Shown here piece by piece: positions 12,440-47,701 of a DNA stretch of 58,615 nucleotides. A program made the position numbers and the translations under genes. The stretch comes from Bacteroidia bacterium (GTDB lineage: Bacteria > Bacteroidota > Bacteroidia > Flavobacteriales_D > Crocinitomicaceae). The notes under the pieces were generated by a model. It was given only the letters and a program-made list of their open reading frames with translations. It was not told the DNA's origin and did no database searches. Numbering within the stretch: the first letter of the stretch is position 1; every line of letters begins with the position of its first letter. The stretch covers positions 1-58,615 of the forward strand of contig JAUICI010000006.1 in NCBI GenBank assembly GCA_030427935.1. Direction: 5' to 3'.

Positions 12440-13120
12440 ATGAAAAATAACTTATTCTTATTGGTCGCTGGGTTGGTCTTCTTGGCCTCATGTTCCACAG
12501 GAAATTTTGCTAAAAGAAAGTATACTAAAGGTAAATACAAGCCTGAAAGAGGAGATTATAATGTTGCGAAAAACAACAATAAAAAAGACGATACGAAATA
12601 TGTTGTGAAAACCGAGAAAAACGAGTTGAAGCAAAATTATAAAGTAGATAAGTCAAAGCTTAAGAAAGAAGAGATTCAAAACACAAATGTTGTTGAAGTA
12701 GCTGAAAACGAAACAAATGTGAAAGCGAACGAACCCATCATTGCTTCAAATAAGCAGGAGGGTCAACTAGCAGACAACATCATCATTCAAGACGAGAATC
12801 AGAATGAAGAGGTGATTGTAAAAGAAAACACAGAAGCTGCTCCATCTACTCCGGAACCATCGCCAGCATCTGCAGGTGAGATTTTGGGATATATTGGATT
12901 TGGATTTGGTATGTTGGCATTCTTAATGGCTGTTTTAGGATGGTTGACATTAGGAATCGCTTATGCTGGATTAGCTTTAGGAATCATCGGACTAGGGGTA
13001 TCGATTGCTTCTTGGGTTATCGATGGTCAGTCCATGTGGAATCTTTGGGGTACGATTTCTTCAGCGGTTGCGATTGTATTATCGATCCTTTGGATTATCC
13101 TGATCATATTAATTTTCTAG
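12440..13120 (+). CDS. KRKYTKG-family lipoprotein 1 with C-terminal membrane domain
   Basis: A 226-residue protein. The lipobox FLASC places the lipid on Cys18, followed at once by the family motif NFAKRKYTKGKYKPERGDY (residues 22-40). Residues 41-145 form a charged Lys/Asn/Glu linker. Residues 147-226 are three closely packed hydrophobic segments (about 147-168, 170-192, 201-226), resembling the DUF4190 type. A lipid anchor plus membrane helices implies both ends are in the inner membrane, with the linker as a periplasmic loop. A basic patch after the lipid cysteine would also fit inner-membrane retention; this is inference. It is monocistronic: own promoter and a strong terminator. Function unknown. 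Confidence 0.85.
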   Translation: MKNNLFLLVAGLVFLASCSTGNFAKRKYTKGKYKPERGDYNVAKNNNKKDDTKYVVKTEKNELKQNYKVDKSKLKKEEIQNTNVVEVAENETNVKANEPIIASNKQEGQLADNIIIQDENQNEEVIVKENTEAAPSTPEPSPASAGEILGYIGFGFGMLAFLMAVLGWLTLGIAYAGLALGIIGLGVSIASWVIDGQSMWNLWGTISSAVAIVLSILWIILIILIF

Positions 13121-13144
13121 AAGAAAAATTATTCATAAAACAAG

Positions 13145-13172
13145 AAAAGCGACTATCGAGTCGCTTTTTTTT
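13145..13172 (+). terminator. Rho-independent terminator after lipoprotein 1
   Basis: A perfect 9-bp stem (13145-13153 with 13160-13168), a six-base loop and a T-run to 13172 separate lipoprotein genes 1 and 2. Confidence 0.85.
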
Positions 13173-13226
13173 ATGCCATTAAAATTACTATATTCGTCTT
13201 GTTACTTACTTAAAAATCAATTTTAT

Positions 13227-13916
13227 ATGAAGAATTTAATTTACTTATTACTCGGATTCACCCTCTTTTTAGGATCCTGTTCAACAGGTAACTTTGCAAA
13301 AAGAAAATACACCAAAGGGAAATATAAACCTGAGCGTGGTGATTATAATGTTGCAAAGAATGATAACAAAAAAGACGACACTAAATATGTTGTCAAAACA
13401 GAAAAGAATAAAAACAAGCAGAACTACAAAGTCAATACAAAAAAGACAAAATCTCAAAAAGAAAACAATTCCAATAATGTAGCTACAGTTAATGAAGACA
13501 TTAAAAAGGAAAATGTTTCTCACGTAAACGAGAACGAAGTTGTAGTTAAGAATACTAATCAAATTCTAGAGGATCAAATCGTTGAAACTCCGGTTGAGAA
13601 AGAAGTGAAGCAAGAAGAAACGGTTTCTTCAACTCCTTCTAACCCTACAACTCCAGCAGGGGATATTGGATGGATTCTAGGACTGATTTCTTTGGTATTG
13701 GGTATCTTATCATTTGTATTCATAATCATGGCATTCTTTAGTGCTTTTATTGCCTGGGCAGGATGGGTAGCATTGGCTCTTGCAGTTGTTGCAATTGGTC
13801 TAGGTGTTGCTTCCTTGGTTATCGACGGAAACATCATGGGATATATCGGTATGTCATTCGGTATTGCAACCTTAGTAATCTTCTTAATCTGGATTCTTAT
13901 CATATTATTGATCTAG
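13227..13916 (+). CDS. KRKYTKG-family lipoprotein 2
   Basis: ATG 13227 is chosen over an in-frame ATG at 13173, because 13173 lies at the tail of the preceding terminator and only 13227 gives a proper lipoprotein signal (LFLGSC, Cys18). The protein is then 229 residues. Residues 19-65 are almost identical to lipoprotein 1, yet the codons differ at many third positions, so selection acts on the protein. The linker diverges and ends in a Pro/Thr/Ser stretch (SSTPSNPTTPAG). Three hydrophobic segments fill the last 80 residues (GWILGLISLVLG onward). It has its own terminator. Function unknown; probably the same inner-membrane topology as its neighbour. Confidence 0.85.
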   Translation: MKNLIYLLLGFTLFLGSCSTGNFAKRKYTKGKYKPERGDYNVAKNDNKKDDTKYVVKTEKNKNKQNYKVNTKKTKSQKENNSNNVATVNEDIKKENVSHVNENEVVVKNTNQILEDQIVETPVEKEVKQEETVSSTPSNPTTPAGDIGWILGLISLVLGILSFVFIIMAFFSAFIAWAGWVALALAVVAIGLGVASLVIDGNIMGYIGMSFGIATLVIFLIWILIILLI

Positions 13917-13940
13917 TGAATCGAGATCTATTTTATTTAA

Positions 13941-13975
13941 AAAGCTCTGACACAGAAGTCAGGGCTTTTTTTTTT
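13941..13975 (+). terminator. Rho-independent terminator after lipoprotein 2
   Basis: An 11-bp stem with one G-U pair (13941-13951 with 13958-13968), a six-base loop and a T-run to 13975. Confidence 0.85.
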
Positions 13976-14018
13976 GGATTAAAGATTGCTACTTTAAGGG
14001 ATTACAAAAACGAAGCTC

Positions 14019-14699
14019 ATGAAATTACTCATTTATTTCTCAATCAGTATTGCGCTTGTTTTAAGCTCTTGTTCTTCCGGTCGACTAGCCTCTGGGAATT
14101 TCAGTAAAAGGAAATACACCAAAGGAGTTTACAAATCCAAAAGGGATCACTATACCTTAGCCAAAGGCGAAAAAGTGAAAAAAGAAGATCACAATAAAAC
14201 ACCGAAAAAGTCAGTCAGAGAGAAAAAAAATAAAAGAGAAGAACAGCTTGTTCAAAAATCAGAAGAACTGCTCCCATCTGATCCAAATGAGATCGCTTAC
14301 GATGAAAAGGCACAGTTAGACGATGCTAAGTTGCAGCAAGATGAAATTGAGGTTCAAAACAAGCCGAAGATTAACTACAAAGAAATTAGGCAACAGATTG
14401 AAGCCGATTATGCTGTGAATTCACCCACATCACCGACACCAGGAATTAGCGCAGGTTTGATTATTAGCTTTGTGGCTTTAGCCATTGCTATAACCGCTGC
14501 TGTATTCGCTGCTATTGGATTTATGAGCATTATTTACGCTTGGATTGGCTTAGCTGGAGGTGGCTTGGCTATTATTCTTGGCTCTATTGGTCATGCCGTT
14601 GATCGTAATGTGGCCTCTGGATTTGCAATTGCACTTGGAGTATTGGCTGTATTGGCGGCTCTGGTCTTTGTTATCTTATTCTTTGCAGGAGTTCTATAA
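14019..14699 (+). CDS. KRKYTKG-family lipoprotein 3
   Basis: A 226-residue paralogue with lipobox VLSSC (Cys18). It carries extra residues (SSGRLAS) between the cysteine and the family motif GNFSKRKYTKGVY, so the motif need not be exactly adjacent to the lipid. The linker is rich in Lys, Glu and Gln, and ends NSPTSPTPGISAG. The C-terminal domain (about 147-226) is Ala/Gly-rich with three hydrophobic segments, closer to that of lipoprotein 1 than to the later array. It reads toward the isocitrate dehydrogenase gene and shares a hairpin terminator with it. Confidence 0.83.
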   Translation: MKLLIYFSISIALVLSSCSSGRLASGNFSKRKYTKGVYKSKRDHYTLAKGEKVKKEDHNKTPKKSVREKKNKREEQLVQKSEELLPSDPNEIAYDEKAQLDDAKLQQDEIEVQNKPKINYKEIRQQIEADYAVNSPTSPTPGISAGLIISFVALAIAITAAVFAAIGFMSIIYAWIGLAGGGLAIILGSIGHAVDRNVASGFAIALGVLAVLAALVFVILFFAGVL

Positions 14700-14701
14700 A
14701 G

Positions 14702-14731
14702 AAAAACCCCAGCTCAAGAGCCAGGGTTTTT
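14702..14731. terminator. Bidirectional terminator between lipoprotein 3 and icd
   Basis: An 8-bp outer stem (14702-14709 with 14724-14731) whose A-run and T-run can serve either strand, plus a short inner GCT/AGC stem. It lies between two convergent genes. Confidence 0.75.
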
Positions 14732-14755
14732 AGTCTATTTTTCAATCTTAAACTT

Positions 14756-16987
14756 TTATGCCATTGCTACAATTGCATCTAAGATTTCATTTAATGTAGT
14801 GCTTGGTCGCATTGCTGGATCCGCTTTGGAATCATCTGGTGAATAATAACCTCCAATGTCCACTGGATTTCCTTGAATCGAATTCAATTCCTCTACGATT
14901 TTAGCTTCATTGGCTTCAAGCTTGGAAGCTACCTCCGCAAATCTTAATTTCAATTCAGCATCTTTGTCTTGAGCGGCTAATTCTTTCGCCCAGTATAAAG
15001 CTAAATAATAATGCGAACCTCTATTGTCCAATTCTCCTGCTTTTCTTGAAGGCGATTTTCCATTCATCAACAAGGTTGTTGTCGCGTTGTCCAATGTTTC
15101 TCCCAGAATAGCTGCTTTCTCATTTCCGTTCACTTCAGCATAGTGCTCAAGAGAAACAGCCAAAGCCAAGAATTCACCTAATGAATCCCATCTCAAGTGA
15201 TTTTCTTCAACGAATTGTTGCACGTGCTTTGGAGCAGAACCCCCAGCACCCGTTTCAAACAATCCACCACCATTCATTAATGGTACAATAGAAAGCATCT
15301 TAGCAGAAGTTCCAACTTCTAGGATTGGGAAAAGGTCTGTATTGTAATCTCTCAAGACGTTTCCTGTTACCGAAATTACATCGATTCCTTTATGAATTTC
15401 TTCACAAGAATAGTAAGCCGCTGCCTCTGGATCTTTGATTAAGATTTCCAATCCATCTGTATCATGTTCAGGTAAATACTGATTGATTTTCTTGATCAAT
15501 TCCGCATCATGAGCTCGGTCTTTATCTAACCAAAATACGGCTGTATTTCCTGTAGCTCTTGCTCTTTTCACTGCTAATTTGATCCAATCCTGAATTGGAA
15601 GGTCTTTTACCTGACAAGCTCTCCAGATATCTCCTTCTTCAACTGTGTGGGAAGTCAATGTATTTCCTTCATTGTCTTTAATAACAACTGTTCCAGCCTT
15701 AGAAATCTCAAATGTTTTGTCATGCGAACCATATTCCTCCGCTTTTTGAGCCATCAAACCTACATTGGAAACAGATCCCATTTTTGTTGGATCAAATGCC
15801 CCGTTTTTCTTACAGAAATCAATCGTCGCAGAATAAATCTTGGCATAAGACGAATCTGGGATGACCGCTTTTGTATCTTGAGACTTTCCATCTTTGTTCC
15901 ACATCTGACCAGAATTTCGGATCATCGCCGGCATGGATGCATCGATAATAACATCTGAAGGCACATGTAAGTTGGTAATTCCTTTGTCTGAATTCACCAT
16001 GGCCAAATCAGGTCCATTTTCGTAACAAGTTTGAATATCTGCTAGGATTTCTTCTTTATTCGGAAGGGAATCAATCTTCTTCAATAGATCACCAAAACCA
16101 TTGTTTACATCTACACCTGCTGCTTCAAGAGCTGCTCCATGCTTTTCAAAAACATCAGCGAAAAATACTTTTACCGCATGACCAAAAATGATTGGGTCTG
16201 AAACCTTCATCATGGTTGCTTTCATGTGCAAGGAGAATAAAACTCCTGATTTTTTGGCATCTTCTTTTTGAATTTCTAGGAAATCAATCAAGGCTTTCTT
16301 ATTCATGTAAGTGGCATCTACAATCTCACCTTCTAAAAGTGCCAATCCTGATTTCAAAACCGTTGTACTCCCATCATTTCCTTCTAAAATAATGTCTGCT
16401 GTGCAATCTTTTTTAATCGTAACCGATTGTTCATTATTTCTGAAATCCCCTGAAGTCATGTGTGCCACATGCGATTCTGAATCGGATGACCACGCCCCCA
16501 TGGAGTGTGGATTTTTCTTAGCAAATTCCTTCACTGCTTTCGGAGCTCTTCTGTCTGAATTTCCTTCTCTTAATACAGGATTTACCGCCGAACCTTTTAC
16601 CTTATTGTATCTGGCTTGAATTTCTTTTTCCTTTTCATCTTTTGGTTCTTCCGGATAATCTGGAATCGGAAAACCATCCGCTTGCAATTCTTTGATTGTT
16701 GCTGTCAACTGAGGAATAGAAGCTGAAATATTTGGAAGCTTGATAATGTTTGCTTCTGGTTTTTTAACCAACTGACCCAATTCCGCTAAATCATCTGAAA
16801 CTCTCTGATTCTCTGAAAGGTATTCTGGAAAAAGAGAGAGAATTCTACCTGCAAGAGAAATATCTTTGGTTATGAATTCGATTCCTGAAGGTTCTGCAAA
16901 TGCTTTTACGATTGGCAGAAATGATCTTGTTGCCAAAGCCGGTGCTTCATCGGTTTTGGTGTAAATGATTTTTGCGTTTTGTGTCAT
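14756..16987 (-). CDS. icd: Isocitrate dehydrogenase, NADP-dependent, monomeric type
   Basis: At 743 residues it has the size of the monomeric (IDH-II) enzyme, about 740, rather than the 415-residue dimeric type. It makes 2-oxoglutarate, CO2 and NADPH from isocitrate in the TCA cycle. Recognisable family stretches are [14 protein letters not shown] near residue 135, [18 protein letters not shown] near 160 (the substrate-binding region around the conserved serine), and [16 protein letters not shown]-type sequence near 255 (here [16 protein letters not shown]). [24 protein letters not shown] near 540 is another, quoted here in part. It is a single-gene unit with a leader of roughly 90-170 bases; a TAGATTTG on the minus strand at 17077-17084 could be its -7 element, but I see no matching -33. 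Confidence 0.95.
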
Positions 16988-17165
16988 AATTCGAGTTTTA
17001 GAAAATGCGTTGTTCTAACAAGGATGTTTTCGTAATGAGTAAGTATAAATCTGCTCTAACACCCGTAAATCTTGGGCAAATCTATAAAATCTAAACGTTT
17101 TTTTATATATTTCAGGGATTAATATTCCATAAAGTTTAGGTATCCTAATTTACCTCTTTCGAAAA

Positions 17166-17531
17166 GTGCTCTATTTGAATAAAATTTTATCCATATTCCT
17201 TTTGATTTTATTGGTATCTGCATGCAAATACGACAATACCGTAAATAAATACGTCTACAATTTCTCAAATGACACCATCACAGTGAATTGGAATAATGAA
17301 AACTTCATTTTACTTCCCGGAGAGTTTAGATTGGTGCAAACAAAGTTTTATGGAGGCGCGGATGAAGGCATTCCTTGTGAACTAGATAATGAATTCGTCA
17401 TGAGTTTTAGTTCTGGTCGAACATTAGTCAAAGAACTCGACTCTGCTGAAGCCTGGGAAGGCAATATTGGGGGAAATAGACATTTATTTCAAGAGTGTTA
17501 TTTCCGTGTGAATGAAGTGGATTTGCAGTAG
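17166..17531 (+). CDS. Small lipoprotein of unknown function
   Basis: A protein of about 120 residues. The lipobox LLVSAC follows a short hydrophobic signal; translation starts at GTG 17166 or TTG 17175. The mature part contains KYVYNFSNDTITVNW and a pair of later cysteines (GIPCELD, QECYFRV) that may form a disulfide. I do not recognise the family. It is a lone gene between the icd promoter region and a repeat-bearing spacer. Confidence 0.65.
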   Translation: MLYLNKILSIFLLILLVSACKYDNTVNKYVYNFSNDTITVNWNNENFILLPGEFRLVQTKFYGGADEGIPCELDNEFVMSFSSGRTLVKELDSAEAWEGNIGGNRHLFQECYFRVNEVDLQ

Positions 17532-17613
17532 GGAGTGGGGCGAGTTTCGAGTGAGACTATGAGATCCTTCGACTTACTTCGACTTCGCTCAGCAACCACC
17601 GCTCAGGACGACG

Positions 17614-17638
17614 CTATGAGACTATGAGACTATGAGAC
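17614..17638 (+). repeat. 8-bp tandem repeat ACTATGAG spanning a start codon
   Basis: About three copies of the octamer ACTATGAG run from 17614 to 17638; an isolated copy also lies at about 17555. Each copy carries an ATG (17616, 17624, 17632), each in a different reading frame. Only the last opens the membrane-protein gene. Confidence 0.75.
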
Positions 17639-17997
17639 AAACTAACAAAAACTACCTTATAGCCTTTCGAACATTTATTTTGTTGATCGGTATTGCTTCA
17701 ATTTTTTTGCCTTTTCATGAATTCAATCAATTTAAGAAACCAGCATCACCAGTAGAAAAACATTTTATCTTCGAATACCATACTCGATTTATCTTTTATG
17801 GTGTCTTTCTCTTTTTTTTGATGCTTCGTTATTATCTAATTCCTAGACTTAATTCTTCAATATTGATTATCGGATTCTTCGGAGAGGGAATGTTATCCGA
17901 CGAACACAACATTACAATTGGAGGTGTTTTAGCCTTATTACTTTATCCTCTAATTATTTTAGAATGGTTAATTCAGCGAGGGATAAATTCTAAATAA
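17632..17997 (+). CDS. Small membrane protein, paralogue of the next gene
   Basis: A 121-residue protein with three likely membrane segments (about 11-27, 52-70, 95-114). The first (FRTFILLIGIASIFLPF) and last (GGVLALLLYPLIILEWLI) align with the corresponding segments of the protein encoded 5 bases downstream, so the pair is a tandem duplication. The start ATG lies inside the 8-bp tandem repeat. No catalytic motif is visible and the function is unknown. Confidence 0.65.
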   Translation: MRQTNKNYLIAFRTFILLIGIASIFLPFHEFNQFKKPASPVEKHFIFEYHTRFIFYGVFLFFLMLRYYLIPRLNSSILIIGFFGEGMLSDEHNITIGGVLALLLYPLIILEWLIQRGINSK

Positions 17998-18001
17998 GCA
18001 T

Positions 18002-18376
18002 ATGAAAGTAGGAAGGCATATATTCATATTTAGAGTTTTTGTTTTGCTTTTGGGGGTTTTGGCTGCAATCACTCCCATTTATAAATACGGTCGACTTGAT
18101 GTTTCGGAGTCACTATATCTTTTGGACTTCGCACCCATTTTTGCTTTGCATTTAGTGGTTTTCATCTTACTAATCTTCACCTATTTTTATGAGGAAAAAG
18201 TTAAGGTTTGGGCCATCATTGCTTCATTTTTTTCCATGGCTTTTATTCTGCTGATCTTGGTCTTTTCCAGTATGTTGGTCTTTCCATCTTCTTACCAGCT
18301 ACATTTTGGAGGGTATTGCTTGATTTTGATTTTCCCTCTCAGCATATTTGAACATTTCATACCAGGTAAATGGTAA
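18002..18376 (+). CDS. Small membrane protein, tandem paralogue
   Basis: A 124-residue protein with three or four hydrophobic segments (about 8-26, 44-62, 69-93, 103-119). It shares FRVFVLLLGVLAAITPIYKY and GGYCLILIFPLSIFEHFI positions with the upstream gene. The two are almost certainly co-transcribed, with only four bases between stop and start. Unknown function. Confidence 0.65.
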   Translation: MKVGRHIFIFRVFVLLLGVLAAITPIYKYGRLDVSESLYLLDFAPIFALHLVVFILLIFTYFYEEKVKVWAIIASFFSMAFILLILVFSSMLVFPSSYQLHFGGYCLILIFPLSIFEHFIPGKW

Positions 18377-18443
18377 TTGCGGTCAAACTTCGCGAAGCTT
18401 TGCGACTTCTTCGCGCAACTTTGCGGAATAGCTTAGACCACCC

Positions 18444-18500
18444 CATGAATTTCAGGGGCGTTTGAAACGCCTGGAATGTGAACACTCGTTGGAGACGAGC
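18444..18500. repeat. Double-hairpin REP-like element
   Basis: Two adjacent small hairpins: 18457-18463 with 18465-18471 (7 bp around a tight loop), and 18485-18489 with 18495-18499 (5 bp, 5-base loop). The preceding CCCC at 18441-18450 can also pair with GGGG at 18455-18458, giving an alternative fold. It lies between convergent genes and could act as a terminator or be a dispersed repeat. Confidence 0.5.
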
Positions 18501-18522
18501 GCTAGTTTGTGGGTGTGAGAGC

Positions 18523-19299
18523 TTACTTCTTCTTGAAAGCGTTTATGGCATTTACTGTGAAATCCGAGAGGACTAGTTTTCCCGACATCGCTGCTCTTTC
18601 GGCTAGAAGCGCGTCCCAGTTTTCTGTTCCTTGCCAGAATACTTGTTTAAGTAACTGCATGGCTTCAGGATTGGATTTTGACAATTTTCCAGCTAGCGTT
18701 GAAATCGCCTCATCCATTTCCTCTGTTGTATCGAAAACTTCGGCGTACAATCCTTTTTCTTTTGCCCATTGTGCCGTTTGCCATTCTGTAGCGTCGATCG
18801 CTAATTGAGACATTCCGGAAACACCGATTTTTCTTTCTACTGCTGGTCCGACTACAAAAGGTCCGATTCCAACTGCTAATTCAGAAAGTTTAACTGAAGC
18901 GAATTTGGTTGCGAAACAATAATCCACTGCCGAAGCAACACCTACTCCACCACCTACAGCTTTTCCGTGCACTCTTCCAATGATTAGTTTCGGACATTTT
19001 CTACAAGCATTAATTACGTTTGCAAACCCGGAAAAGAAAACCTTCCCTGTATCCAAATCTTTGATCGAGATTAATTCATCAAAACTTGCACCTCCACAAA
19101 AAGCTCTTTCTCCTGCAGATTTCAGAACAATTACCATGACCTCATCTTTATTTCCTAGCTCAGTAATCGTATTGGCCAATTTTGCCAAGATTTTACCTGG
19201 TAAGGAATTCGATAAGGGGTGACCGAACTCAATGGTTGCGATTCCATTGTCGATTGAAAACTCTACATGTCCTTGATCTACTGCGTTTGCTGTGCTCAT
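18523..19299 (-). CDS. Enoyl-CoA hydratase/isomerase family protein
   Basis: A 258-residue crotonase. The oxyanion-hole segments are ERAFCGGASFDEL near residue 64 and HGKAVGGGVGVASAVDY near 110. The second acidic position is in KLSELAVGIGPFVVGP near 137. Crotonases act on the acyl part of CoA thioesters (hydration, isomerisation or related steps), here possibly in fatty-acid or branched amino-acid breakdown; the exact reaction cannot be read from sequence. It has no signal peptide and is monocistronic. It is divergent from a small membrane gene whose frame extends into its start region. Confidence 0.88.
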   Translation of the reverse strand: MSTANAVDQGHVEFSIDNGIATIEFGHPLSNSLPGKILAKLANTITELGNKDEVMVIVLKSAGERAFCGGASFDELISIKDLDTGKVFFSGFANVINACRKCPKLIIGRVHGKAVGGGVGVASAVDYCFATKFASVKLSELAVGIGPFVVGPAVERKIGVSGMSQLAIDATEWQTAQWAKEKGLYAEVFDTTEEMDEAISTLAGKLSKSNPEAMQLLKQVFWQGTENWDALLAERAAMSGKLVLSDFTVNAINAFKKK

Positions 19300-19378
19300 A
19301 ATGATAAATTTTGTTGAGCAAATATATCAATTTCAGCGGAAAATCAGAGTAATAAGCGCGTTCTATAAAAAGAGAATT

Positions 19379-19522
19379 ATGCTAGCTGAAATCATTTGGA
19401 GTGTTTATCTAATCTTGACCCTATTTATAGGTTTTGTTTTGGGGATAATTGTTTCCTATGCCTTTAGAATTAATGATATCGAACTTTTCAAAAAGAAAAA
19501 GAAGAAAAAGAAAAACCGTTAA
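19379..19522 (+). CDS. 47-residue single-pass membrane protein
   Basis: Starting at ATG 19379, preceded by AGAGAA, the protein has one hydrophobic helix (about residues 5-28) and a tail of mixed then nearly pure lysine (FKKKKKKKKNR). The positive tail suggests a cytoplasmic C-terminus. The frame is open further upstream to 19292, but that part overlaps the crotonase start and lacks membrane character. No family recognised; it could be a short inner-membrane peptide or a spurious frame. Confidence 0.4.
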   Translation: MLAEIIWSVYLILTLFIGFVLGIIVSYAFRINDIELFKKKKKKKKNR

Positions 19523-19573
19523 ATCCTCCTAAAAGAAATTAAAGGCATCAAACTTTTTCACTATTTTCGATGT

Positions 19574-20308
19574 GTGAGATTTATCTTGTACATATTCATT
19601 TCTGTATTCCTGTTTTCTTGCGGGTCGACCAATTTCGCCAAGCGTAAGTATACGAAAGGGGTTTATGTGGAAAAGCGGAGCCATGGGTCAATTAAAAATG
19701 AAAAATTAACCCATCGACGAAGCTCAGGGACCAAAATTAAAAATTCTGCTGTTTCTAAAAACAAGGAGCATTCGAAGGAGCTGGCTTTGAAGGAACAGAA
19801 GCGAATTGAAGTTGAAGAAAATAAGATAGAGGAGCCAGAAATTGCTCAGGTAGAACCTGAAATCAAACAAAAGGTCGTTCTCAAATCTGATGGTGGACTA
19901 GAAGAACGAGAAAATGAATTGATTGTGGAGGAGTTCAAGCAAGAATTTGCTCCACCCGAGCTTCAAGATGGTGAAGTTCTTCGAAAGACTAAAAACAAAT
20001 CCGATGCTTTAGGTCTGGCATCCGGAATCATTGGTTATACCGCCTTGGGAATCTTCCTTCTAACCTTATTAATCACCATTATTCTTGCCATTCTTGTGGC
20101 GGTTGGTAGCTTGAGCGGTGCCATTACCGGCATCGTTTTAAACTTCATGTACTTTGGAAGTTTTGTCATGGGTGTGGTTGCCCTTGTTCTGGGATCCATT
20201 TCCTACTCCAAAAAACGAAATGGAATGGCTTTAGCTGGAATTATTATCGGTGCCATTTTTGCCTTATTCCTTCTTATTGGAATCATCGTTGTTCTAGTCG
20301 CAATTTAA
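19574..20308 (+). CDS. KRKYTKG-family lipoprotein 4
   Basis: A 244-residue protein starting at GTG 19574. The lipobox LFSC (Cys16) is followed by GSTNFAKRKYTKGVYVEKRS, the VYVEKRS variant shared by the whole second array. The linker (about 40-135) is rich in Lys, Glu and Gln. The C-terminal domain, about 150-244, has three or four hydrophobic segments with a short basic loop (YSKKRNGMALAG) typical of DUF4190-like domains. It is the first gene of the five-gene array. Topology as inferred for lipoprotein 1; function unknown. Confidence 0.83.
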   Translation: MRFILYIFISVFLFSCGSTNFAKRKYTKGVYVEKRSHGSIKNEKLTHRRSSGTKIKNSAVSKNKEHSKELALKEQKRIEVEENKIEEPEIAQVEPEIKQKVVLKSDGGLEERENELIVEEFKQEFAPPELQDGEVLRKTKNKSDALGLASGIIGYTALGIFLLTLLITIILAILVAVGSLSGAITGIVLNFMYFGSFVMGVVALVLGSISYSKKRNGMALAGIIIGAIFALFLLIGIIVVLVAI

Positions 20309-20312
20309 TTCT

Positions 20313-20327
20313 TTGCGATTTTCGCAA
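20313..20327 (+). repeat. Hairpin at the start of array module A
   Basis: TTGCGA-TTT-TCGCAA, a perfect 6-bp stem directly after lipoprotein gene 4. The same hairpin recurs at 21676-21690 after gene 6. It may be a weak terminator; its duplication marks the module boundary. Confidence 0.6.
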
Positions 20328-20349
20328 GTTTTCTAGGACCCGTCTTCCC

Positions 20350-20357
20350 TAATTTTG
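20350..20357 (+). promoter_or_regulatory. -7 element of module A
   Basis: TAATTTTG fits TAnnTTTG and ends 20 bases before ATG 20378. The corresponding spot in module B holds TAAATTTG (21713-21720). No clear TTG at -33. Confidence 0.4.
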
Positions 20358-20377
20358 ATTCAAAACAAACTTGAATC

Positions 20378-21013
20378 ATGGGAAAGATTATTTACTATAC
20401 GCGACTATTTCTGCTTACGTGGTTATTGTTTTCCTGCGGAACAAACAATTTCGCAAAGAGGAAATTTACCAAGGGTGTTTATGTTGAGAAACGAAGTCAT
20501 GGGTCAACTAAACCCTCAAAAAAACTGAGTACCAAAAATAATCCATTAGAAGTCATCAATTCTAAAGGTTCAGTGACAGAAAATGCCACCGTCACAGTCG
20601 ATGAAAACGTTCAAAATCCTATAAAAATTCTTGAAAACCAAAATCTAAAGGATGAGGAGAAGTGGAATCAATTTGGTAAGGAACTAACAGATAAAGAACC
20701 TCTAATTGAGAATCCAGACATTTCATATGAATACGGGGAAATAAAGCCTGAAGAAAAACAAATTAGAACATCTTCAGAAAAGAATAATGAGAATGATCGC
20801 GTAACAAAAGGTGAGCTCGCACTGATTTTTGGAATTCTTGGGATTTTCATGTGGTTTATGGCTATTCCTGCCATCATTTTAGGACTTAAGTCAAATCGAA
20901 CAAGCAAAAGTAAGGAGGGAAAAGCCGGGCTTATTATCGGTATAACAACCTTGGTACTTTACTTTATCGTATTGCCTTTAATTTTTCTTCTGACCTTTTT
21001 ATTTGCTTACTAA
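20378..21013 (+). CDS. KRKYTKG-family lipoprotein 5
   Basis: A 211-residue paralogue. The signal peptide starts MGKIIYYTRLFLL and ends at LLFSC (Cys20); the family motif here reads NFAKRKFTKGVYVEKRSHG, with Phe for Tyr. The linker (about 45-145) is acidic/Asn-rich. The C-terminal domain is short, with two hydrophobic segments around a basic loop (LKSNRTSKSKEGKAG), the classic DUF4190 layout. Leader and signal peptide are nearly identical in DNA to those of gene 7, marking a recent duplication. Ten bases separate it from gene 6, so the two are an operon. Confidence 0.83.
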   Translation: MGKIIYYTRLFLLTWLLFSCGTNNFAKRKFTKGVYVEKRSHGSTKPSKKLSTKNNPLEVINSKGSVTENATVTVDENVQNPIKILENQNLKDEEKWNQFGKELTDKEPLIENPDISYEYGEIKPEEKQIRTSSEKNNENDRVTKGELALIFGILGIFMWFMAIPAIILGLKSNRTSKSKEGKAGLIIGITTLVLYFIVLPLIFLLTFLFAY

Positions 21014-21023
21014 CCTGTGAACC

Positions 21024-21671
21024 ATGAAACATCTAATTATCTTCTTTTTAATTCCAATTATCGTCTCTTGCGGAACAAACAATTTCACAAAGAGGAAATA
21101 TACGAAAGGCGTTTATGTGGAGAAGCGAAGTCATGGAAAAGTGAAATCTTCATCTTCCTTTCGAAAGCGTCAATCTTTGGAGGACGTTAAAAACCCAGAG
21201 GTTGCTCACAATCAAAAGGAAGACAAAAAGACAAATGCACAATTAGTGATTCAAAAAGAGGTGACAATTTCTGACTTTGATCATCCCTTAAATGAAACTC
21301 TAGATGAGGACGGAGTTGTCGTTCAGGAAGATCAAAACGAAGAGGAAGATGTAATTCTTGCTCCATTTGCACCAAGCCCATTACCAGCATCAGATATTGG
21401 AATGGATGGACCGCTTTATTGGGTCAGCTTTGCCTGTTCACTTCTTGGTGGTGGTGCTGTACTATTAGATTTCTTTCTGACTTTTTCTAGTTATTTAAGT
21501 TTTTTTCTAGGAATTCCCTTTCTGACCGCGGCATTGGTTATGGCCATAATCGCAGTTGCCCGAGCTTTTTCTTGGGATTACAGTATTTTCGGTAAAATCA
21601 TGTCCATTTTCACACTTCTTTTTTCCATGGCCTTGCTTGCAGCATGTATCCTCTTGATTATCCTAATTTAA
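21024..21671 (+). CDS. KRKYTKG-family lipoprotein 6
   Basis: A 215-residue paralogue with lipobox IIVSC (Cys16) and motif NFTKRKYTKGVYVEKRSHG. The linker is rich in Lys, Glu and Asp and ends in a Pro-rich stretch (LAPFAPSPLPASDIG). The C-terminal part (about 130-215) has three hydrophobic segments, but its sequence is unlike that of genes 5 or 7, so this domain has been exchanged or has diverged fast. It is the second gene of module A. Confidence 0.83.
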   Translation: MKHLIIFFLIPIIVSCGTNNFTKRKYTKGVYVEKRSHGKVKSSSSFRKRQSLEDVKNPEVAHNQKEDKKTNAQLVIQKEVTISDFDHPLNETLDEDGVVVQEDQNEEEDVILAPFAPSPLPASDIGMDGPLYWVSFACSLLGGGAVLLDFFLTFSSYLSFFLGIPFLTAALVMAIIAVARAFSWDYSIFGKIMSIFTLLFSMALLAACILLIILI

Positions 21672-21675
21672 TTCT

Positions 21676-21690
21676 TTGCGATTTTCGCAA
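21676..21690 (+). repeat. Hairpin at the start of array module B
   Basis: An exact copy of the 20313-20327 hairpin (6-bp stem, TTT loop), again directly after a lipoprotein gene and about 50 bases before the next start. Confidence 0.6.
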
Positions 21691-21712
21691 GTTCTTTTGC
21701 TGAATACTACCT

Positions 21713-21720
21713 TAAATTTG
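21713..21720 (+). promoter_or_regulatory. -7 element of module B
   Basis: TAAATTTG fits TAnnTTTG and ends 21 bases before ATG 21742, the same position as the element in module A. Confidence 0.4.
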
Positions 21721-21741
21721 ATTCTAACTCAAACTTGAATC

Positions 21742-22338
21742 ATGGGAAAGATCATTTTTTGCACGAGACTATTTCTTCTGATGTGGCTATTATTTTCTTG
21801 CGGAACAAACAACTTCGCTAAGAGAAAATACACCAAAGGCGTTTATGTAGAGAAACGAAGTCGTGGGACATTTACTCCTTCAAAACACAGTTTGGCAAAT
21901 GAAAGATCTATATACCCTCGAAATTCAGTCTCGCAAGTTAAAAACATGGGGTCTTTTTTAGATAAAGAAAACAATCAGAAGTTTAGCGAAAATGATGAGA
22001 ATGACATCGCAGTCAATCAAGACATAGAAACAAAGGAAATTGAAGAAATAATAGAACGAGTTGGTTACCATCAAAAGTATATTAATGAAGAGACCAATAC
22101 TATTCAAAAAAGGGATTCAAAATCATATACGAATTCAGATAAAAGCAAATCAACAACAACTGGAATAATATTCACTTCAATAGGGGCAGTGTTAATCGCA
22201 GCCGGAATTTTCATAATGATATTTCTTTCGATTCTATTTCAAGGATTTATTTTGATCTTAGGCGGTCTTGTAATCGTAATCGGATTGATCTTTTTAATAG
22301 ATGGATTAGTAAAATTAACCAGACCTAAAAAAGAATAA
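21742..22338 (+). CDS. KRKYTKG-family lipoprotein 7
   Basis: A 198-residue paralogue, first gene of module B. The signal peptide matches that of gene 5 almost residue for residue and ends LLFSC (Cys20), then NFAKRKYTKGVYVEKRSRG. The linker (about 45-140) is Asn/Glu/Ile-rich and unlike that of gene 5. The C-terminus has only two hydrophobic segments (about 142-165 and 168-187) and a basic end (LTRPKKE). Only three bases separate it from gene 8. Function unknown. Confidence 0.83.
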   Translation: MGKIIFCTRLFLLMWLLFSCGTNNFAKRKYTKGVYVEKRSRGTFTPSKHSLANERSIYPRNSVSQVKNMGSFLDKENNQKFSENDENDIAVNQDIETKEIEEIIERVGYHQKYINEETNTIQKRDSKSYTNSDKSKSTTTGIIFTSIGAVLIAAGIFIMIFLSILFQGFILILGGLVIVIGLIFLIDGLVKLTRPKKE

Positions 22339-22341
22339 AAA

Positions 22342-23217
22342 ATGAACCTGATCTTTAGTTATACCCTATTACTATTACTTCTTTTTTCTTGCGGAACAAA
22401 CAACTTCGCTAAGAGGAAATATACCAAGGGTGTTTATGTTGAGAAACGAAGTCGTGGGACAACGAAAACCTCAAAAAGAAAGGATTTAAAAACTAAAAAT
22501 TCTCCCGTAACTTCTTTAAAAACGAAAGAACAAAAAAGGAATGAAATAAGCCATCGCGGAGAATTCCACTCGGATGCTATCCATCAAGAGGAAAATGAAT
22601 ATCGGGAAGATTTTTCGGAAAATGAGGTGGAAACAATCACAATTGAGGAGGCTGAAAATTTGGCAAACAAACTGACTCCGGAAGAACAGAAAAGAAAGAA
22701 AAAGAATTTGGATGTGGGTCTTGGATGTTTTATCTCTGGAATTGGGGCTATCGGAATCATGTATGCCTTAAATTTTGCTTTGCCTTTTGTGCCGGCTCTT
22801 TCTGCTTTGGCTGCCATAATCGGAATTGTGTTGATTATTGTTGGCATCATCTTTTTTGCACGATATGACAAACTGAAGAAAAAGGAAAAAAATAAAGAAA
22901 AAACTGAAGCATATTATCAAGAATTGGCTCGAAAGGGCGCCATTATTAGTTATGTTGGATTGGGAATTGTCCTAATCGCTTTTCTCCTTTTCTTTCTTGT
23001 GTTTTTTTCAGCAATCGCTTATCCACCGGCTTGGGGAATCTGGTTTGGAATCCTGCTACTTTGTGGGGAAATTCTTGGAATTACCTCTATTGTACTTGGA
23101 GCAATTGGGAGAAGATTCAGAACTAAAAATCACGATATCTCTTTGTACATCGGAATCGCTTGTTTGGCAATGCCCCTACTTGTATTTTTGGTCTTACTGG
23201 TGATCATATTCTTATAA
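22342..23217 (+). CDS. KRKYTKG-family lipoprotein 8 with enlarged membrane domain
   Basis: The longest paralogue, 291 residues. Lipobox LLFSC (Cys17), then NFAKRKYTKGVYVEKRSRG. The charged linker runs to about residue 125. The C-terminal part is doubled: a first pair of hydrophobic segments (about 128-172), a very basic segment (YDKLKKKEKNKEKTEAYYQ), then three more hydrophobic segments up to 291. It is the last gene of the array and is convergent with a thioesterase gene. The doubling supports modular exchange of the membrane part behind a constant N-terminus. Confidence 0.83.
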   Translation: MNLIFSYTLLLLLLFSCGTNNFAKRKYTKGVYVEKRSRGTTKTSKRKDLKTKNSPVTSLKTKEQKRNEISHRGEFHSDAIHQEENEYREDFSENEVETITIEEAENLANKLTPEEQKRKKKNLDVGLGCFISGIGAIGIMYALNFALPFVPALSALAAIIGIVLIIVGIIFFARYDKLKKKEKNKEKTEAYYQELARKGAIISYVGLGIVLIAFLLFFLVFFSAIAYPPAWGIWFGILLLCGEILGITSIVLGAIGRRFRTKNHDISLYIGIACLAMPLLVFLVLLVIIFL

Positions 23218-42240: not shown

Positions 42241-44370
42241 TCAAACTCTAATTCCAATAATACACACGTCATCTACCTGCTCCAAATCTCCTTTCCAATT
42301 GTCGAACTTAACTGAAATTAATGCTTCTTGTTCCTTCATGGATTTTAGATGTATCTCAAGTAAAAATTCTTTCATGGGTTTCACTTTAAACTTCTTACCT
42401 CGGCTACCTCCGAATTGATCTTGGTAGCCATCGGTCATCATGTAAACCGCATCTCCTTTCACCAATTCAATTTCGCCTCCAGTAAAATCGTTGGAATCGT
42501 TGTGGTGTTTTCCAACTGGCATTTTTTCGCCTTTGATATCGATCAATTCACCATTTCGGATGATCCAGATGGGGTTATGCGCGGCAACATAATACATTTT
42601 GGTTTTTTCTTGATTCAGGACGATCAAACTGGCATCCATTCCGTCTTTTCCTCCATCTTTGGAACCATCTTTTTGTAAGCGCTCGATGATGGCTTTTCGA
42701 GTGGCATTGAATATATCGGAGGGCTTCTTATTTCCCTTTTCGATGGCTTTTTCCAAAGAAGAAATGTTGAGCAAACTCATAATTGCTCCGGGAACACCAT
42801 GCCCTGTACTGTCGGCGCAACACAAGGCAAAACTCTTATCTTCCAATTCCCCTGCCCAATAAAAATCACCACTCACCGCTTCTTTCGGATTGAAATAGAC
42901 AAAAAATTCATTCAAATGTGCCCCCAGCATTTCATCGGTAGCCAGAAAAGACTTCTGAATCCGCTTCGCATAGGAAATAGAATCCATGATTTCCTTATTC
43001 TTTTGCTCCACAATGTCTTTTTGAATGGTAATTTCCTTGTTTTTCGATCTGAGAATGGAATTGTTCTTTTTTCTCATTTGAATATTTCGGACAGCAAAAC
43101 CTACACCCACAAGAAGCAATAAAACAATCACCATGGCTCCATAGACCAAAGTGTTTTTTCGGTCGGATTCGGCTTCGGCTTTATCGGCTTTCAATTTGTT
43201 GAGCTCACTTTCTTGTTGGGCTTGTAATAGTTGTTCTTCTTTCTCTTTGGTTTCATATTTGGTTTGCATTTCTGCTAATGCTTTCGAACTTTTTACTTTG
43301 GCAATCGAGTCTTTCAAAGTGGAGTAAGTCTGCAAATTTTCATAAGCTTCTTTGTTACTTCCTATTTTGTAAAGCGCATCCGACAAATGCAAATAGCCGT
43401 CCATGATCGCTTCAATAGAGGCACTTTTCTGTGCCAATTCTAATCCTTCTCTTAGATTTTTAATGGCTTTAGCGGGATCGCCTTTTTTAATCTGAATGGC
43501 TCCTAATCGAATCAAAGTCATCCCGATGGTTTCCTTGCTCATCCCTTCTACTTGCAGTTTGAGTTCCAAGGCTTTCTTCAAATTCCATTCTGCCTTATCA
43601 ATTTGCTCCATGACCACATACAATTCAGCCAAATCGGAATAGGTATAGGAAGCACCATACACATCTCCGTTGGCTTCCTTCATTTCCAAAGATTGCTTGA
43701 AATAGAATTCTGCTGAATCCAGTTTTCCCAGATTTTGCATGGATGTGGCCATATTGTTGATCGGCCATGAAGTATAAGGATCATTGATTTTCTTTAAATA
43801 ATTGGCTGATTTTCGAAAACGTTTTACGGCCTCTTCATATCGTTCTGTGGTGTGGTAAATATTCCCTATTCCCAAATTCGCCATTCCCACTCCACGTGTA
43901 AAACCATCTTCAATAAAGAATTCTTCTCCTTTTAAATAAGAGTCCAAAGCTGCGGTATAATCTCCTTTGATATCGTGAATGTTTCCTTTGGAAATATAAA
44001 GGTTGGCCAAGCGTCTTTTGTTCTCAATCTCTTCTTTCCATTCCAGAATTGAATTAATGATTTGCAAGGCGGTGTCGAGCTGACCTATTTCCGTATATTT
44101 CCTTGAAAAGAACTCGAGCGCATCAATTTCACCTTCTCGATAATCGATCTTTCTGGATAAATCGAGTGCTTGAGTGGCATAATTGGTCGAAGCTGTTGTA
44201 TCCGTTCGAAGCAAAATAGTGGCCAATTCGTGTAAAACAGTCACACGTTCCTCATCCTTAAGCTCCCTATTTAATTTTGATTTTAAACTATCCACTTTCT
44301 CCTCAATTCGACCTTGAGTGAAAGCTTGGGAAAATGCCAAGAGTAGTATGGTGAGAAGAATCTGTTTCAA
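42241..44370 (-). CDS. TPR sensor with SpoIIE-type PP2C phosphatase domain
   Basis: A 709-residue protein: signal sequence (1-19), about eight TPR helices (30-370), a membrane helix (about 405-428) and a short coiled coil. A SpoIIE phosphatase domain follows (about 470-709) with EAVSGDFYWAG, ADSTGHGVPGAIMS, GMDASLIVLN and DGYQDQFGG carrying the metal-binding acids. The TPR part is probably periplasmic and the phosphatase cytoplasmic. It would dephosphorylate a Ser/Thr-phosphorylated partner, for example an anti-anti-sigma protein. It starts four bases after the caspase gene. Confidence 0.88.
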   Translation of the reverse strand: MKQILLTILLLAFSQAFTQGRIEEKVDSLKSKLNRELKDEERVTVLHELATILLRTDTTASTNYATQALDLSRKIDYREGEIDALEFFSRKYTEIGQLDTALQIINSILEWKEEIENKRRLANLYISKGNIHDIKGDYTAALDSYLKGEEFFIEDGFTRGVGMANLGIGNIYHTTERYEEAVKRFRKSANYLKKINDPYTSWPINNMATSMQNLGKLDSAEFYFKQSLEMKEANGDVYGASYTYSDLAELYVVMEQIDKAEWNLKKALELKLQVEGMSKETIGMTLIRLGAIQIKKGDPAKAIKNLREGLELAQKSASIEAIMDGYLHLSDALYKIGSNKEAYENLQTYSTLKDSIAKVKSSKALAEMQTKYETKEKEEQLLQAQQESELNKLKADKAEAESDRKNTLVYGAMVIVLLLLVGVGFAVRNIQMRKKNNSILRSKNKEITIQKDIVEQKNKEIMDSISYAKRIQKSFLATDEMLGAHLNEFFVYFNPKEAVSGDFYWAGELEDKSFALCCADSTGHGVPGAIMSLLNISSLEKAIEKGNKKPSDIFNATRKAIIERLQKDGSKDGGKDGMDASLIVLNQEKTKMYYVAAHNPIWIIRNGELIDIKGEKMPVGKHHNDSNDFTGGEIELVKGDAVYMMTDGYQDQFGGSRGKKFKVKPMKEFLLEIHLKSMKEQEALISVKFDNWKGDLEQVDDVCIIGIRV

Positions 44371-44374
44371 ACTC

Positions 44375-47300
44375 TTATTTTATGCGATAATCCATTTGAA
44401 TATTCTCGATTCTTGCTGTTGGTGTTTGTTTACCTCCCGACATCTTCGTTACCTCATCATAAACGTATTTTCTCAATTCTGAAATCAAAATCTTTCCGTC
44501 GCCATTCTTGTCTGCACGACCATTTTTCAGTCCATTTAAAAAACAGTAAGTAAACAAACCATTTTTCCAATCCGAACTTTCCATCGCATATTCCGCACCA
44601 CCTGCTGAAGAAATTACGGTAGCACCAGAACCTTTTCTTAAATCAGAAAATAGATCTTGCATCAATTCCACGCTATTCTCAACACCGATTCCTTCTTTCT
44701 TTCTCACTCCGGCTCCAGCAGATCTGAATTCCACATCACCTTCGACTTTCTCCACATCCACTTCACCTTCTTCGATTTCTTCTTCATCGACTTCTCCGGA
44801 ATGACACGTATCCATGATCAGAAGCTTTCTGAGTGATTTGATATTATCCAAAATCCCATCCAACTTTTCATAGGACATGCCTCTTTCACCTGGGTTATTG
44901 AAATCCATGTCGTGGGTTCCAAAATAATAGTTGAAATCGGCATCCAATACACCGTGACCAGCGATGAAAATAATTACCACATCTTCTGGTTTAGCATCTT
45001 TCAGAAAAACTTCAATGTCTTCCATGTTTTCCAAAACCACCTCTTCATCAACCAATTTCTTCACATGCACTTTCTCGAAAAGATCCACTGAAGATTCCAT
45101 GGAATTGATGATATCTGAGGCATCTTTGGATGGGTAGGTTAAATTAAAACGCTCATCATTATACTTTGAAACACCAATCGCTACAATATAAAGGTCTGCT
45201 TTCTTGTTGTCGCTTTTTCTCATTATGGAAACCGTTTTCGACAAGGATTCTACCCCTTTTTCATTTAAAACTGAAAAGGAAATCTTATTCGGTCCAGGAA
45301 TCAGTGGAACTTTAATATCTTTTAGAATCGACCCCAAATCTTTCTCCCGCATGTCGATTCCTTTGGTTCCAAAAATCGGCACATCGTTGACATACACATT
45401 GATTCGGTCCAGCTTAAATTTGGTGTCCCAAGCTTTTAGTTTGACCGTAAGTTCATTCAGTTCTGTCGCAATCGGCAGATCCGATTCGTTTTCAATCTTC
45501 ACCTTTGGGAGGTGAAATTCTTTTCCAAGTTGTTCTTCCGTGAAGCCCATTTTTCTCAAACGCTTTTTGTAAACGTACTTGTAAGCATTCAATAATCTCG
45601 GAGATGTTTTCCCAATTCTCTCTCCCACAATATCTGGTCGGTTCAGCCTTAGATCAAACTGCTCGAAAGGGTATAATTCTTCATCCACACGAAAGGAAAT
45701 TCCTTTTAGCGCTTCCTTGGATGCCATATAATAATTGTCTGGTGTAATTAAGGCAAAATCCGAATATCCATAGGAAATTAAAGTGGCTACATTCTTACAT
45801 TCATCTACATCAGAAATCTTGATTGTCCCATCATTGGAAGCGGAAATGAATCGATTGCGATCTTCTTCAAACACAACTTTAGTTACTTGATCGTCGTGGT
45901 CGTTAAACTGACACAATTTTTCTCCACTCGGAATACTCCAGGCGATCATGGAATTATCAGCTTCTGAAACCGCATTATTTCCAGCTACCGAAACCAAAAC
46001 GCTTCCGTCTTTATTGAAATCAATGCTTGTAATGATGTTTTTATGTCCTTTCAATGTCTTTACCAAATTGAAATCTTTGGTGTCGTACAAATTGATGGTT
46101 TGATCCCAAGAAGCTGAAGCCAAAAACTTCCCATCTGGTGAAAATTTCACATCAGAAATCGTAATGGTCTGGTCTTTTTTCTGATGCAATTCCTTCCCTG
46201 ATTTCAAATCCCAAACTCGGAGTGTTTGATCGTAACCTGAAGAAGCCACATATTGATTATCCGGACTAAAAGCCAATCCTTGAATGCCTCCAACATGGCC
46301 AGTCATTCTCTTAATCAGCTTTTTCTTTTCCAAATCCCAGATCTTCACGATACCCGTAAAACCGGCTCCTGCCAAATATTTTCCATCTTCGGAAATTGCC
46401 AAAGTTTGAATTAACTCCATGTCGCAGTCGAGCTGACCTACTCTTTTGTTTCTTTTGATATCAAAAATTCCGATGCGCATATCAGCTGCCATGGCAAAAA
46501 CCTGATCCCCTTTCGCATTGAATTTTACTGGGAAGAAAGCGATCAATTCGGATTCTACTTTGTTGTTCTTGAGATTCCAAACCTTTATTCGAGCCTTATC
46601 CGAAGCAACAGCCAAGTATTTCCCGTTTTTGGAATAATCCATGGAAACAATCTTATTGATCTTCTGGGTGTACTCGCTTTCATAATCTCCTGTCTCCACA
46701 TTTCGATAGCGAATTCTTCCGTAAATAGAAGAAGCTTCGATTAATACATCTTGGAGTGGATGGGAAACAAAAGATTGCACACCTGCCATATCTTTGACCT
46801 TCCATTCGTGTTGCATTTTCTTGGTTTCATAATTCCAAACTCTAAGCATCCATTGATGATTGTAGGAGTATAAATACTTCCCTTTTTTATCGAAGTGGAT
46901 TCTTTGGACTTTTCCTTCTTCCTTTTTGGAAGAGAAATCGATTTTAAAAGTTTCCAAATTGATTAAGCGAATGATGTCATCGTTAAAACCAGCAGAAATA
47001 TATTTACCATCTGGAGAAACCACAGGCCCGGAAAAAGGCACATTGAAAGCATCAAAAATTTTGTGTTCTCCTTTAAGCGTCATGGTCTTTAAATCGAAGA
47101 CCAAAAGATTCCCTTTTACATCAAATGAATAGGCTTCCATTTTTGGTTCGTAAACATTTACGGTGTATCCGAAAACCATTTCAATCGTCTTTTTCGTAGC
47201 ATCTGTTCCAAAAACATCTACCATTTCCAATTGTGAATTGGCATTTTTAAAGACGACTTTCTGACCATTTTCAATCCAGCAAACATTTCCATTGTAATCT

Positions 47301-47638: not shown

Positions 47639-47658
47639 ATGAATAATAATTAATTACT

Positions 47659-47692
47659 CAAATATAAAGTATTAGCTCAAATTATATACCAA
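47659..47692 (-). promoter_or_regulatory. Promoter of the caspase-phosphatase operon
   Basis: On the minus strand: TTG (47692-47690), 23 bases, TATATTTG (47666-47659), an exact TAnnTTTG match. The start codon is 21 bases downstream. Confidence 0.5.
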
Positions 47693-47701
47693 GTATTTGG
47701 T

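Follow-up and report, generated by a model that had tools for sequence, protein, structure and literature searches.

Eight genes in a 58,615-nt stretch of a Crocinitomicaceae genome (contig JAUICI010000006.1, hereafter the window) encode putative lipoproteins in which a conserved head follows the lipid cysteine and a charged linker leads to a C-terminal membrane tail. We propose that these proteins belong to a chromosomal family of single-chain tethers joining both membranes, the lipid head lying in the outer and the tail in the inner membrane, and we give this reading, based on sequence, a probability of about 0.45. A new feature of the family is that the linker is, as judged from sequence comparison, free in its residues and guarded in its length. 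An outer-membrane lipid with an inner-membrane tail would fit the data better than a loop within the inner membrane because the linker has a minimum length, an insert adds to that length, linkers are short in lipid-free proteins and the heads carry no surface-export signal.

Architecture of the window proteins

All eight open reading frames (ORFs) are open at the coordinates given in Table 1 and encode proteins of 198–291 aa. Gene starts and segment counts were assigned mechanically, a tail segment being a hydrophobic 19-mer with a Kyte–Doolittle mean of at least 1.6. The start of gene 2 was corrected to 13227, the listed ORF (13173–13916) using a longer start. In an alignment of the eight proteins, S-C, N-F-x-K-R-K-[YF]-T-K-G-x-Y and a later R were invariant (8/8), and the spacer between the lipid Cys and the KRK core was six residues long except in gene 3, where it was 11. 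A charged linker, not conserved in sequence, joins this head to two to five C-terminal hydrophobic segments. These results bear out the initial annotation of the window, which had described eight proteins with a lipobox, a KRK head, a variable linker and such a tail. An AlphaFold2 model of the gene 1 protein, computed from five sequences and of low confidence as a whole (mean predicted local distance difference test (pLDDT) score 57.9), contained a signal helix, a region below pLDDT 50 (residues 36–135) and tail helices at residues 145–166, 171–195 and 199–225, where ten-residue blocks averaged about 75–89.

Length of the linker

Relatives of the window proteins were collected with a profile of the head, as described below. 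Among 146 unique head proteins, 105–209 residues separated the lipid Cys from the first membrane segment (5th percentile 113, median 128, 90th percentile 152), and the minimum was 104–106 across four hydropathy thresholds. In the eight window genes, the distance was 106–129. The set holds the 146 proteins measured out of 147 unique ones, all entries of loci L113, L115, L120, L077, L138, L220 and L051 having been left out. Linker length does not simply reflect one shared sequence, because 125 linkers split by blastp into 92 clusters at E ≤ 1e-3 (75 singletons), 77 at 0.01 and 50 at 0.1; the lowest cluster median was 113 at each cut-off. These 125 proteins were drawn from 134 head ORFs by omitting the false positives L113, L115 and L120, together with L077, L220, L051, one L184 entry in which no core was found and a truncated L069 protein.

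In 116 head proteins without an insert, grouped by spacer (short, middle or long), the core lay a median of 114, 118 and 115 residues, respectively, from the first membrane segment. Seven linkers (L075, L319, L196, L137, L139, L098 and L151) contain an insert of constant length, 52 residues with two cysteines (C-x3-[IVLF]...Y-x2-C...NG). Besides the insert, these proteins have 111–149 residues, within the range of insert-free proteins; the seven are the bounded cases among nine candidates, and L075, L137 and L139 are near copies. The linkers of L192, L195 and L198 consist in part of degenerate repeats such as SQDASQD / EQGRSEGVFQDA, which suggests length change by slippage.

Lipid-free proteins with a signal peptide and a TM2 (or, in one case, Pmp3) tail had 25–56 residues to the membrane in 18 of the 19 measured, these controls being largely one orthologous TM2 group in which 7/18 carry a Cys accepted by the lipobox pattern. 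We read those seven, from their sequences, as probable signal peptidase I substrates; dropping them left the range unchanged at 25–56 (11 proteins).

A minimum linker length suggests a span across the periplasm, since ends in one membrane need no minimum. At 0.36 nm per residue, 105–128 residues correspond to a contour of 38–46 nm, which suffices for a periplasm 20–30 nm wide. A rather unlikely alternative is that lipid and tail both lie in the inner membrane, with the linker as a periplasmic loop and the head as a motif that recruits one shared partner, inner-membrane or periplasmic, to different domains. A conserved head with a variable spacer would suit such a docking motif, a protein held by several helices would be hard to extract, and inner-membrane lipoproteins with membrane helices exist, such as CyoA and the YidC homologues of Gram-positive bacteria. 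However, this arrangement predicts neither a minimum linker length nor additivity with the insert and would make the lipid redundant, and no obvious partner gene lies beside the clusters in the window and the sister genome, the neighbours in distant genomes not having been surveyed. The initial annotation had likewise inferred a linker loop with both of its anchors in the inner membrane; the minimum length, the additive insert and the short linkers of lipid-free proteins speak against it.

Pmp3 proteins found without the head

We also searched 60 genomes of the window's order for Pmp3 proteins, independently of the head profile and free of its built-in lipobox. The proteins fell into two classes: 24/41 had frames of at least 190 aa and 17/41 had frames of 80 aa or less. 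A lipobox was present in 24/24 of the long frames (19 distinct ones by pattern; the second gene of L175, L109, L237, L238 and L337 were read directly, four of these five having escaped the tail pattern). By reading, their heads comprised 17 with the KR core, one close variant (L235), four diverged basic/aromatic heads and two others. In the 19 long proteins that were measured, including seven with altered or different heads, 114–144 residues lay between Cys and membrane. The proteins of L231, L256, L252, L255, L338 and L233, from other lineages of the order, have YGKPL-type or basic heads ending in R-x-W or similar, with 114–130 residues from Cys to membrane. Outside the order, no Pmp3 frame of 190 aa or more occurred among the matches listed for a phylum sample of 148 genomes. 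None of 30 Pmp3 loci read from the phylum sample was a headed lipoprotein; L281 encodes a signal peptide without a lipobox.

Conservation, charge and spacing of the head

Across the family, the head consensus was [FI]-Q-K-R-K-[YF]-[TN]-K-G-[YFW]-[HYF]-[VIL], and the core began 3 to 22 residues after Cys, most commonly 3 or 13 (124/134 head ORFs). The heads of genes 1 and 2, 26 codons each, are identical in protein, with synonymous changes at 14.0/16.2 sites and nonsynonymous changes at 1.0/61.8; outside the head, nonsynonymous divergence (dN) between the two genes was 0.49 in the linker and 0.56 in the tail. Against their counterparts in the sister genome, genes 1 and 2 had dN values of 0.10 and 0.05 in the head, 0.40 and 0.60 in the linker and 0.31 and 0.18 in the tail, respectively. 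The contrast was weaker for gene 4 and its counterpart (head 0.38, linker 0.54, tail 0.40). Only the direction of these contrasts is safe because synonymous divergence was saturated in many comparisons. The mean net charge of mature residues +2 to +16 was +2.28 in 134 head ORFs, three of which were later judged false positives (L113, L115 and L120), versus −0.45 in 94 other lipobox ORFs. The earlier claims that the head is under selection and that a basic patch lies near the lipid both held.

The lipoprotein export signal (LES) described for surface lipoproteins of Bacteroidota resembles the head in its place near the lipid cysteine and differs in charge, being acidic at +2 to +6 (PMC5080379). 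None of 125 heads had two acidic residues in +2 to +6, and none had Asp at +2; the heads thus lack any known surface-export signal. As far as sequence goes, surface export is unlikely.

The initial annotation had taken the head for a sorting or partner-binding module. A conserved module combined with unrelated tails was found across the order, but a sorting signal of fixed position is unlikely because the spacer from Cys to core varies from 3 to 22 residues. The same variation bears on the proposal that the basic head is a signal for inner-membrane retention, that is, for avoidance of the Lol system, the idea being that LolCDE would stall on a non-extractable protein if no such signal were present. 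The head does accompany membrane tails, a hydrophobic segment following in 128/134 head ORFs versus 20/94 other lipobox ORFs, these 20 including five head variants fetched through their tails and several doubtful lipoboxes; and residues near the lipid, some of them basic, can retain lipoproteins in Pseudomonas. Known avoidance signals, however, sit at fixed positions +2 to +4, and the conserved F/I, Y, G and following aromatic residue exceed what charge alone would require. We therefore regard retention as improbable.

Neither Pfam nor NCBIfam yielded a model of the head with the eight window proteins, with 30 relatives or, in family scans, among the 25 of 61 and 25 of 53 families listed, so that current annotation sees nothing or only the tail. 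A known domain in the head was rejected, the eight proteins and 30 relatives giving no match over cut-off. N-terminal matches of L102 fell far below their cut-offs (BamJ, 17.6 bits versus 100; PorT/SprT, 16 versus 125), as did a match of L065 to the MG095 lipoprotein (20.9 versus 250). BamJ is described as an FKBP-type surface lipoprotein (PMC12578637). Kinship with it was pursued in 30 genomes, which yielded a widespread family; no link was seen because the best matches began at model positions 33–73. Of the 14 PDB chains retrieved by sequence at E ≤ 1, the best at 0.055, not one was a head, and Foldseek found no PDB structure matching the gene 1 model at E ≤ 0.001, the best hit having an E of 0.45.

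Distribution of the head

In its own genome, a profile of the eight heads matched the eight window genes at E 1e-21 to 1e-25, the only strong matches; the next best, at E 0.025, covered only positions 1–21 of the 44 in the model. A chance or low-complexity match was rejected on this result and on the selection pattern of genes 1 and 2. The sister genome gave six matches at E below 1e-12, and another genome (L217) held two strong copies. Searching Bacteroidota with the head, a check that the initial annotation had proposed, recovered it with unrelated tails: a 37-row profile found the head at E ≤ 1e-4 in 73/150 genomes of the order, the window's own included. The genome samples were draws from larger groups. 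Among good-quality genomes of the order sample, 60/119 carried the head; by genus, the figure was 38/57. In a phylum sample of 296 genomes, 15 matched, 12 of them outside the order (loci L111–L122), and none of these 12 was convincing, since they matched mainly the signal peptide or lacked the core. As only 24 candidates per genome were scored, this search may have overlooked weak heads beyond the order. No published account of the lipid-headed family was found among the papers listed from an open-access library, judged by title or the start of the abstract.

With 80 further regions added, 178 profile hits were obtained, of which 135 were kept (closed ORFs of ≥ 120 aa, reaching model position 32 or beyond at E < 1e-4, with duplicates removed). 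Three loci need separate mention. L115, outside the order, encodes what by reading is a formylglycine-type, GldK-like lipoprotein starting with CKGKGLFGKKKYEKSEVTGW; this loose resemblance to the head may be due to chance. The gene 3 counterpart in the sister genome (L210:6668–7339) aligns over 230 residues by tblastn and has an ORF of only 61 aa, consistent with a broken frame or an assembly error. L212 carries the head family on a contig titled as an uncultured Saccharospirillaceae metagenome-assembled genome and placed in the window's order; we take that title to be a gammaproteobacterial name, and the bin is probably mislabelled.

Membrane tails and their exchange

A tail segment was present in 132/135 kept proteins; none was seen in L077, in the N-masked L138 or in the false positive L113. 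For Pfam scans, L113 was removed and genes 1 and 4 were added. Among the resulting 136 proteins, tails matched Pmp3 (34), DUF2207_C (17, best only 6e-5), DUF4190 (13) and TM2 (10) at E ≤ 0.01, and many matched none of these four. A crude pattern-based sorting of tails, which put 98/125 under 'other', was set aside. The tails of the window proteins scored below every Pfam cut-off. Genes 4 and 5 reached 19.2 and 22.4 bits for DUF4190, versus a gathering cut-off of 35, and the other window genes had no DUF4190 match at E ≤ 1; for Pmp3 (PF01679), neither the own genome (E ≤ 1e-4) nor the eight window proteins gave a match. Going by these scores, the window proteins are not classed as DUF4190 or Pmp3 because their tails miss the cut-offs. 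Pmp3/YqaE (PF01679), TM2 (PF05154) and DUF4190 (PF13828) are small membrane domains that serve as tails of head proteins and elsewhere are mostly short. Within the order, TM2 and DUF4190 domains occurred both with and without the head.

Plain paralogy, in which an ancestral lipoprotein diverged and the head is merely still alignable, would explain why the tails of genes 1–3 can be aligned with one another and why 102/135 kept proteins are 195–260 aa long. It would not explain tails in distinct Pfam families (Pmp3, TM2 and DUF4190) that also occur without the head, nor a chimera in the sister genome that couples the 5′ end of genes 5 and 7 to the tail of gene 6; its signal peptide is 84% identical to gene 5, whereas its tail shares 45% identity with gene 6 and 23% with gene 5. 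Descent without modularity is thus very unlikely, and the simplest reading of these sequences is that tails may be exchanged by recombination through a similar 5′ module.

A putative intermembrane tether

According to the tether reading, the N terminus would be lipidated at the lipobox Cys, and the Lol route would carry the lipidated head to the outer membrane, where it may dock on the periplasmic side through the KRKYxKG motif. The tail would remain in the inner membrane, and the linker would cross the periplasm through the peptidoglycan. The tail would set what is held at, or informed about, the outer membrane, with the head as the common docking end, and tandem copies could swap tails by recombination in the similar 5′ module. 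A wider form of this reading, that Flavobacteriales have a general plug-in tether system with a docking lipid head, a length-guarded disordered cable, interchangeable Pmp3, TM2, DUF4190 or other tails and some tail-swapping tandem arrays, is somewhat more tentative. LolA and LolB are described as conserved in Bacteroidota (PMC11885536), and the Capnocytophaga lipoprotein SiaC, when it lacks the acidic export signal, is reported in the outer membrane, facing the periplasm (PMC5080379).

Several points weigh against a tether. LolCDE may be unable to extract the lipid of a protein anchored by several helices, and other constraints could preserve the length, for example the need to reach peptidoglycan or a partner in the inner membrane. 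The linker does not compensate for the spacer (slope of Cys-to-membrane distance on spacer 0.89 ± 0.20, 109 proteins); an exact ruler measured from Cys was accordingly rejected, and only a minimum length is indicated. One clear full-length head protein, L077:2839–3513, has no membrane tail. Five short closed head ORFs also lack a tail (L060, 61 aa; L152, 70 aa; L185, 59 aa; L037, 100 aa; and L220, 105 aa) and are taken as truncated. Long Pmp3 lipoproteins occur with diverged (L233, L252, L255 and L338) or different heads (L231 and L256), so the lipid and linker extend beyond proteins with the KRKY head. Because the head profile spans the signal peptide, proteins found with it have a lipobox partly by construction, and the lipid-free controls amount to few independent cases, being mostly one orthologous group with 7/18 pattern-positive. 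The control of other lipobox ORFs also leans against the tether reading because head variants and doubtful lipoboxes sit among its 20. The C-terminal part of L077 looks beta-rich by eye, like an outer-membrane barrel, with no Pfam match at E 0.1.

If true, a tether family would be a cellular counterpart of the phage unimolecular spanin (u-spanin) and would provide a role for several small membrane domains and a common context for Pmp3, TM2 and DUF4190, whose roles in bacteria are, to our knowledge, obscure. Interchangeable inner-membrane ends on one conserved lipid head would open intermembrane coupling to direct study. The envelopes of Bacteroidota depart from the E. coli model, and the factor that fixes the spacing of inner membrane and peptidoglycan is described as not settled (PMC5771553).

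Comparison with known systems

The u-spanin of phage T1, gp11, is described as a single chain linking both membranes through an N-terminal lipobox and a C-terminal membrane segment (PMC6139136); we counted 86 residues between its lipid Cys and membrane segment on the translation. The window proteins share the C-terminal transmembrane segments (two to five, with helices in the gene 1 model) and the N-terminal lipobox (8/8), the final membrane of the lipid being a prediction. U-spanins have one membrane segment, a lysis cassette and an ectodomain predicted to be beta-rich, whereas head proteins have mostly two to six segments, chromosomal surroundings, a conserved head and, in gene 1, a linker predicted to be disordered. 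No phage lysis cassette with holin or endolysin was found beside the window genes, their neighbours being chromosomal genes in conserved order. No beta-rich periplasmic domain was seen: the gene 1 linker, in this one protein and at low confidence, had no predicted strand and pLDDT under 50. A tblastn search of 50,697 phage records with gene 1 as the only query gave no match, and a spanin PHROG search gave none at E ≤ 0.01 for the eight window proteins; 1/136 head proteins matched an Rz-like spanin PHROG at 1.5e-4. Judged by sequence and context, the window family is not classed as u-spanin because it has no lysis cassette, no gene 1 match in phages and no predicted beta-rich linker. Two Cellulophaga phages are described as annotated with one or a potential u-spanin (PMC8776804). 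A phage or plasmid origin was rejected with one query per collection, gene 1 being unmatched in phages and gene 8, as single query, in plasmids.

TolA and TonB resemble the head proteins in an inner-membrane anchor and a long linker that needs periplasm-spanning length, and TolA is reported to work despite deletions until it is too short for the span (PMC12204202). They differ in that the anchor is N-terminal, the far end is a folded C-terminal domain, there is no lipid and they are motor-driven. RcsF and Lpp are likewise lipoproteins whose reach across the periplasm is described as limited by length (PMC5771553); unlike the head proteins, they lack inner-membrane helices, and Lpp is bound to peptidoglycan.

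Features of the window

Between the two gene clusters (Table 1) lie a gene resembling isocitrate dehydrogenase, small genes for membrane proteins or lipoproteins and a gene resembling enoyl-CoA hydratase, named by reading their translations. The order of the cluster neighbours, which by reading are trpG/pabA-like, isocitrate dehydrogenase, enoyl-CoA hydratase and thioesterase genes, is the same in the sister genome.

Table 1. Head-protein genes, their heads and associated repeats, in window coordinates.
Feature	Coordinates	Strand	Description
Gene 1	12440..13120	+	Lipoprotein, 226 aa, 3 tail segments
Head of gene 1	12491..12568	+	Lipid Cys plus 25 residues
Gene 2	13227..13916	+	Lipoprotein, 229 aa, 3 tail segments
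Head of gene 2	13278..13355	+	Protein identical to gene 1 head
Gene 3	14019..14699	+	Lipoprotein, 226 aa, 3 tail segments; spacer before core 5 residues longer
Head of gene 3	14070..14162	+	
Gene 4	19574..20308	+	Lipoprotein, 244 aa, 3 tail segments; GTG start; weakly DUF4190-like (19.2 bits, cut-off 35)
Head of gene 4	19619..19696	+	
Hairpin-like repeat after gene 4	20302..20330	+	29 nt, identical to 21665–21693
Gene 5	20378..21013	+	Lipoprotein, 211 aa, 2 tail segments; weakly DUF4190-like (22.4 bits, cut-off 35)
Head of gene 5	20435..20512	+	
Gene 6	21024..21671	+	Lipoprotein, 215 aa, 3 tail segments
Head of gene 6	21069..21146	+	
Hairpin-like repeat after gene 6	21665..21693	+	29 nt, identical to 20302–20330
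Gene 7	21742..22338	+	Lipoprotein, 198 aa, 2 tail segments
Head of gene 7	21799..21876	+	Belongs, like the 5′ leader and signal peptide, to a 171-nt module common to gene 5 (80% DNA identity)
Gene 8	22342..23217	+	Lipoprotein, 291 aa, 5 tail segments
Head of gene 8	22390..22467	+	

Elsewhere in the window, positions 42241–52810 hold three very long minus-strand ORFs in a row, of 709, 1087 and 1702 aa.

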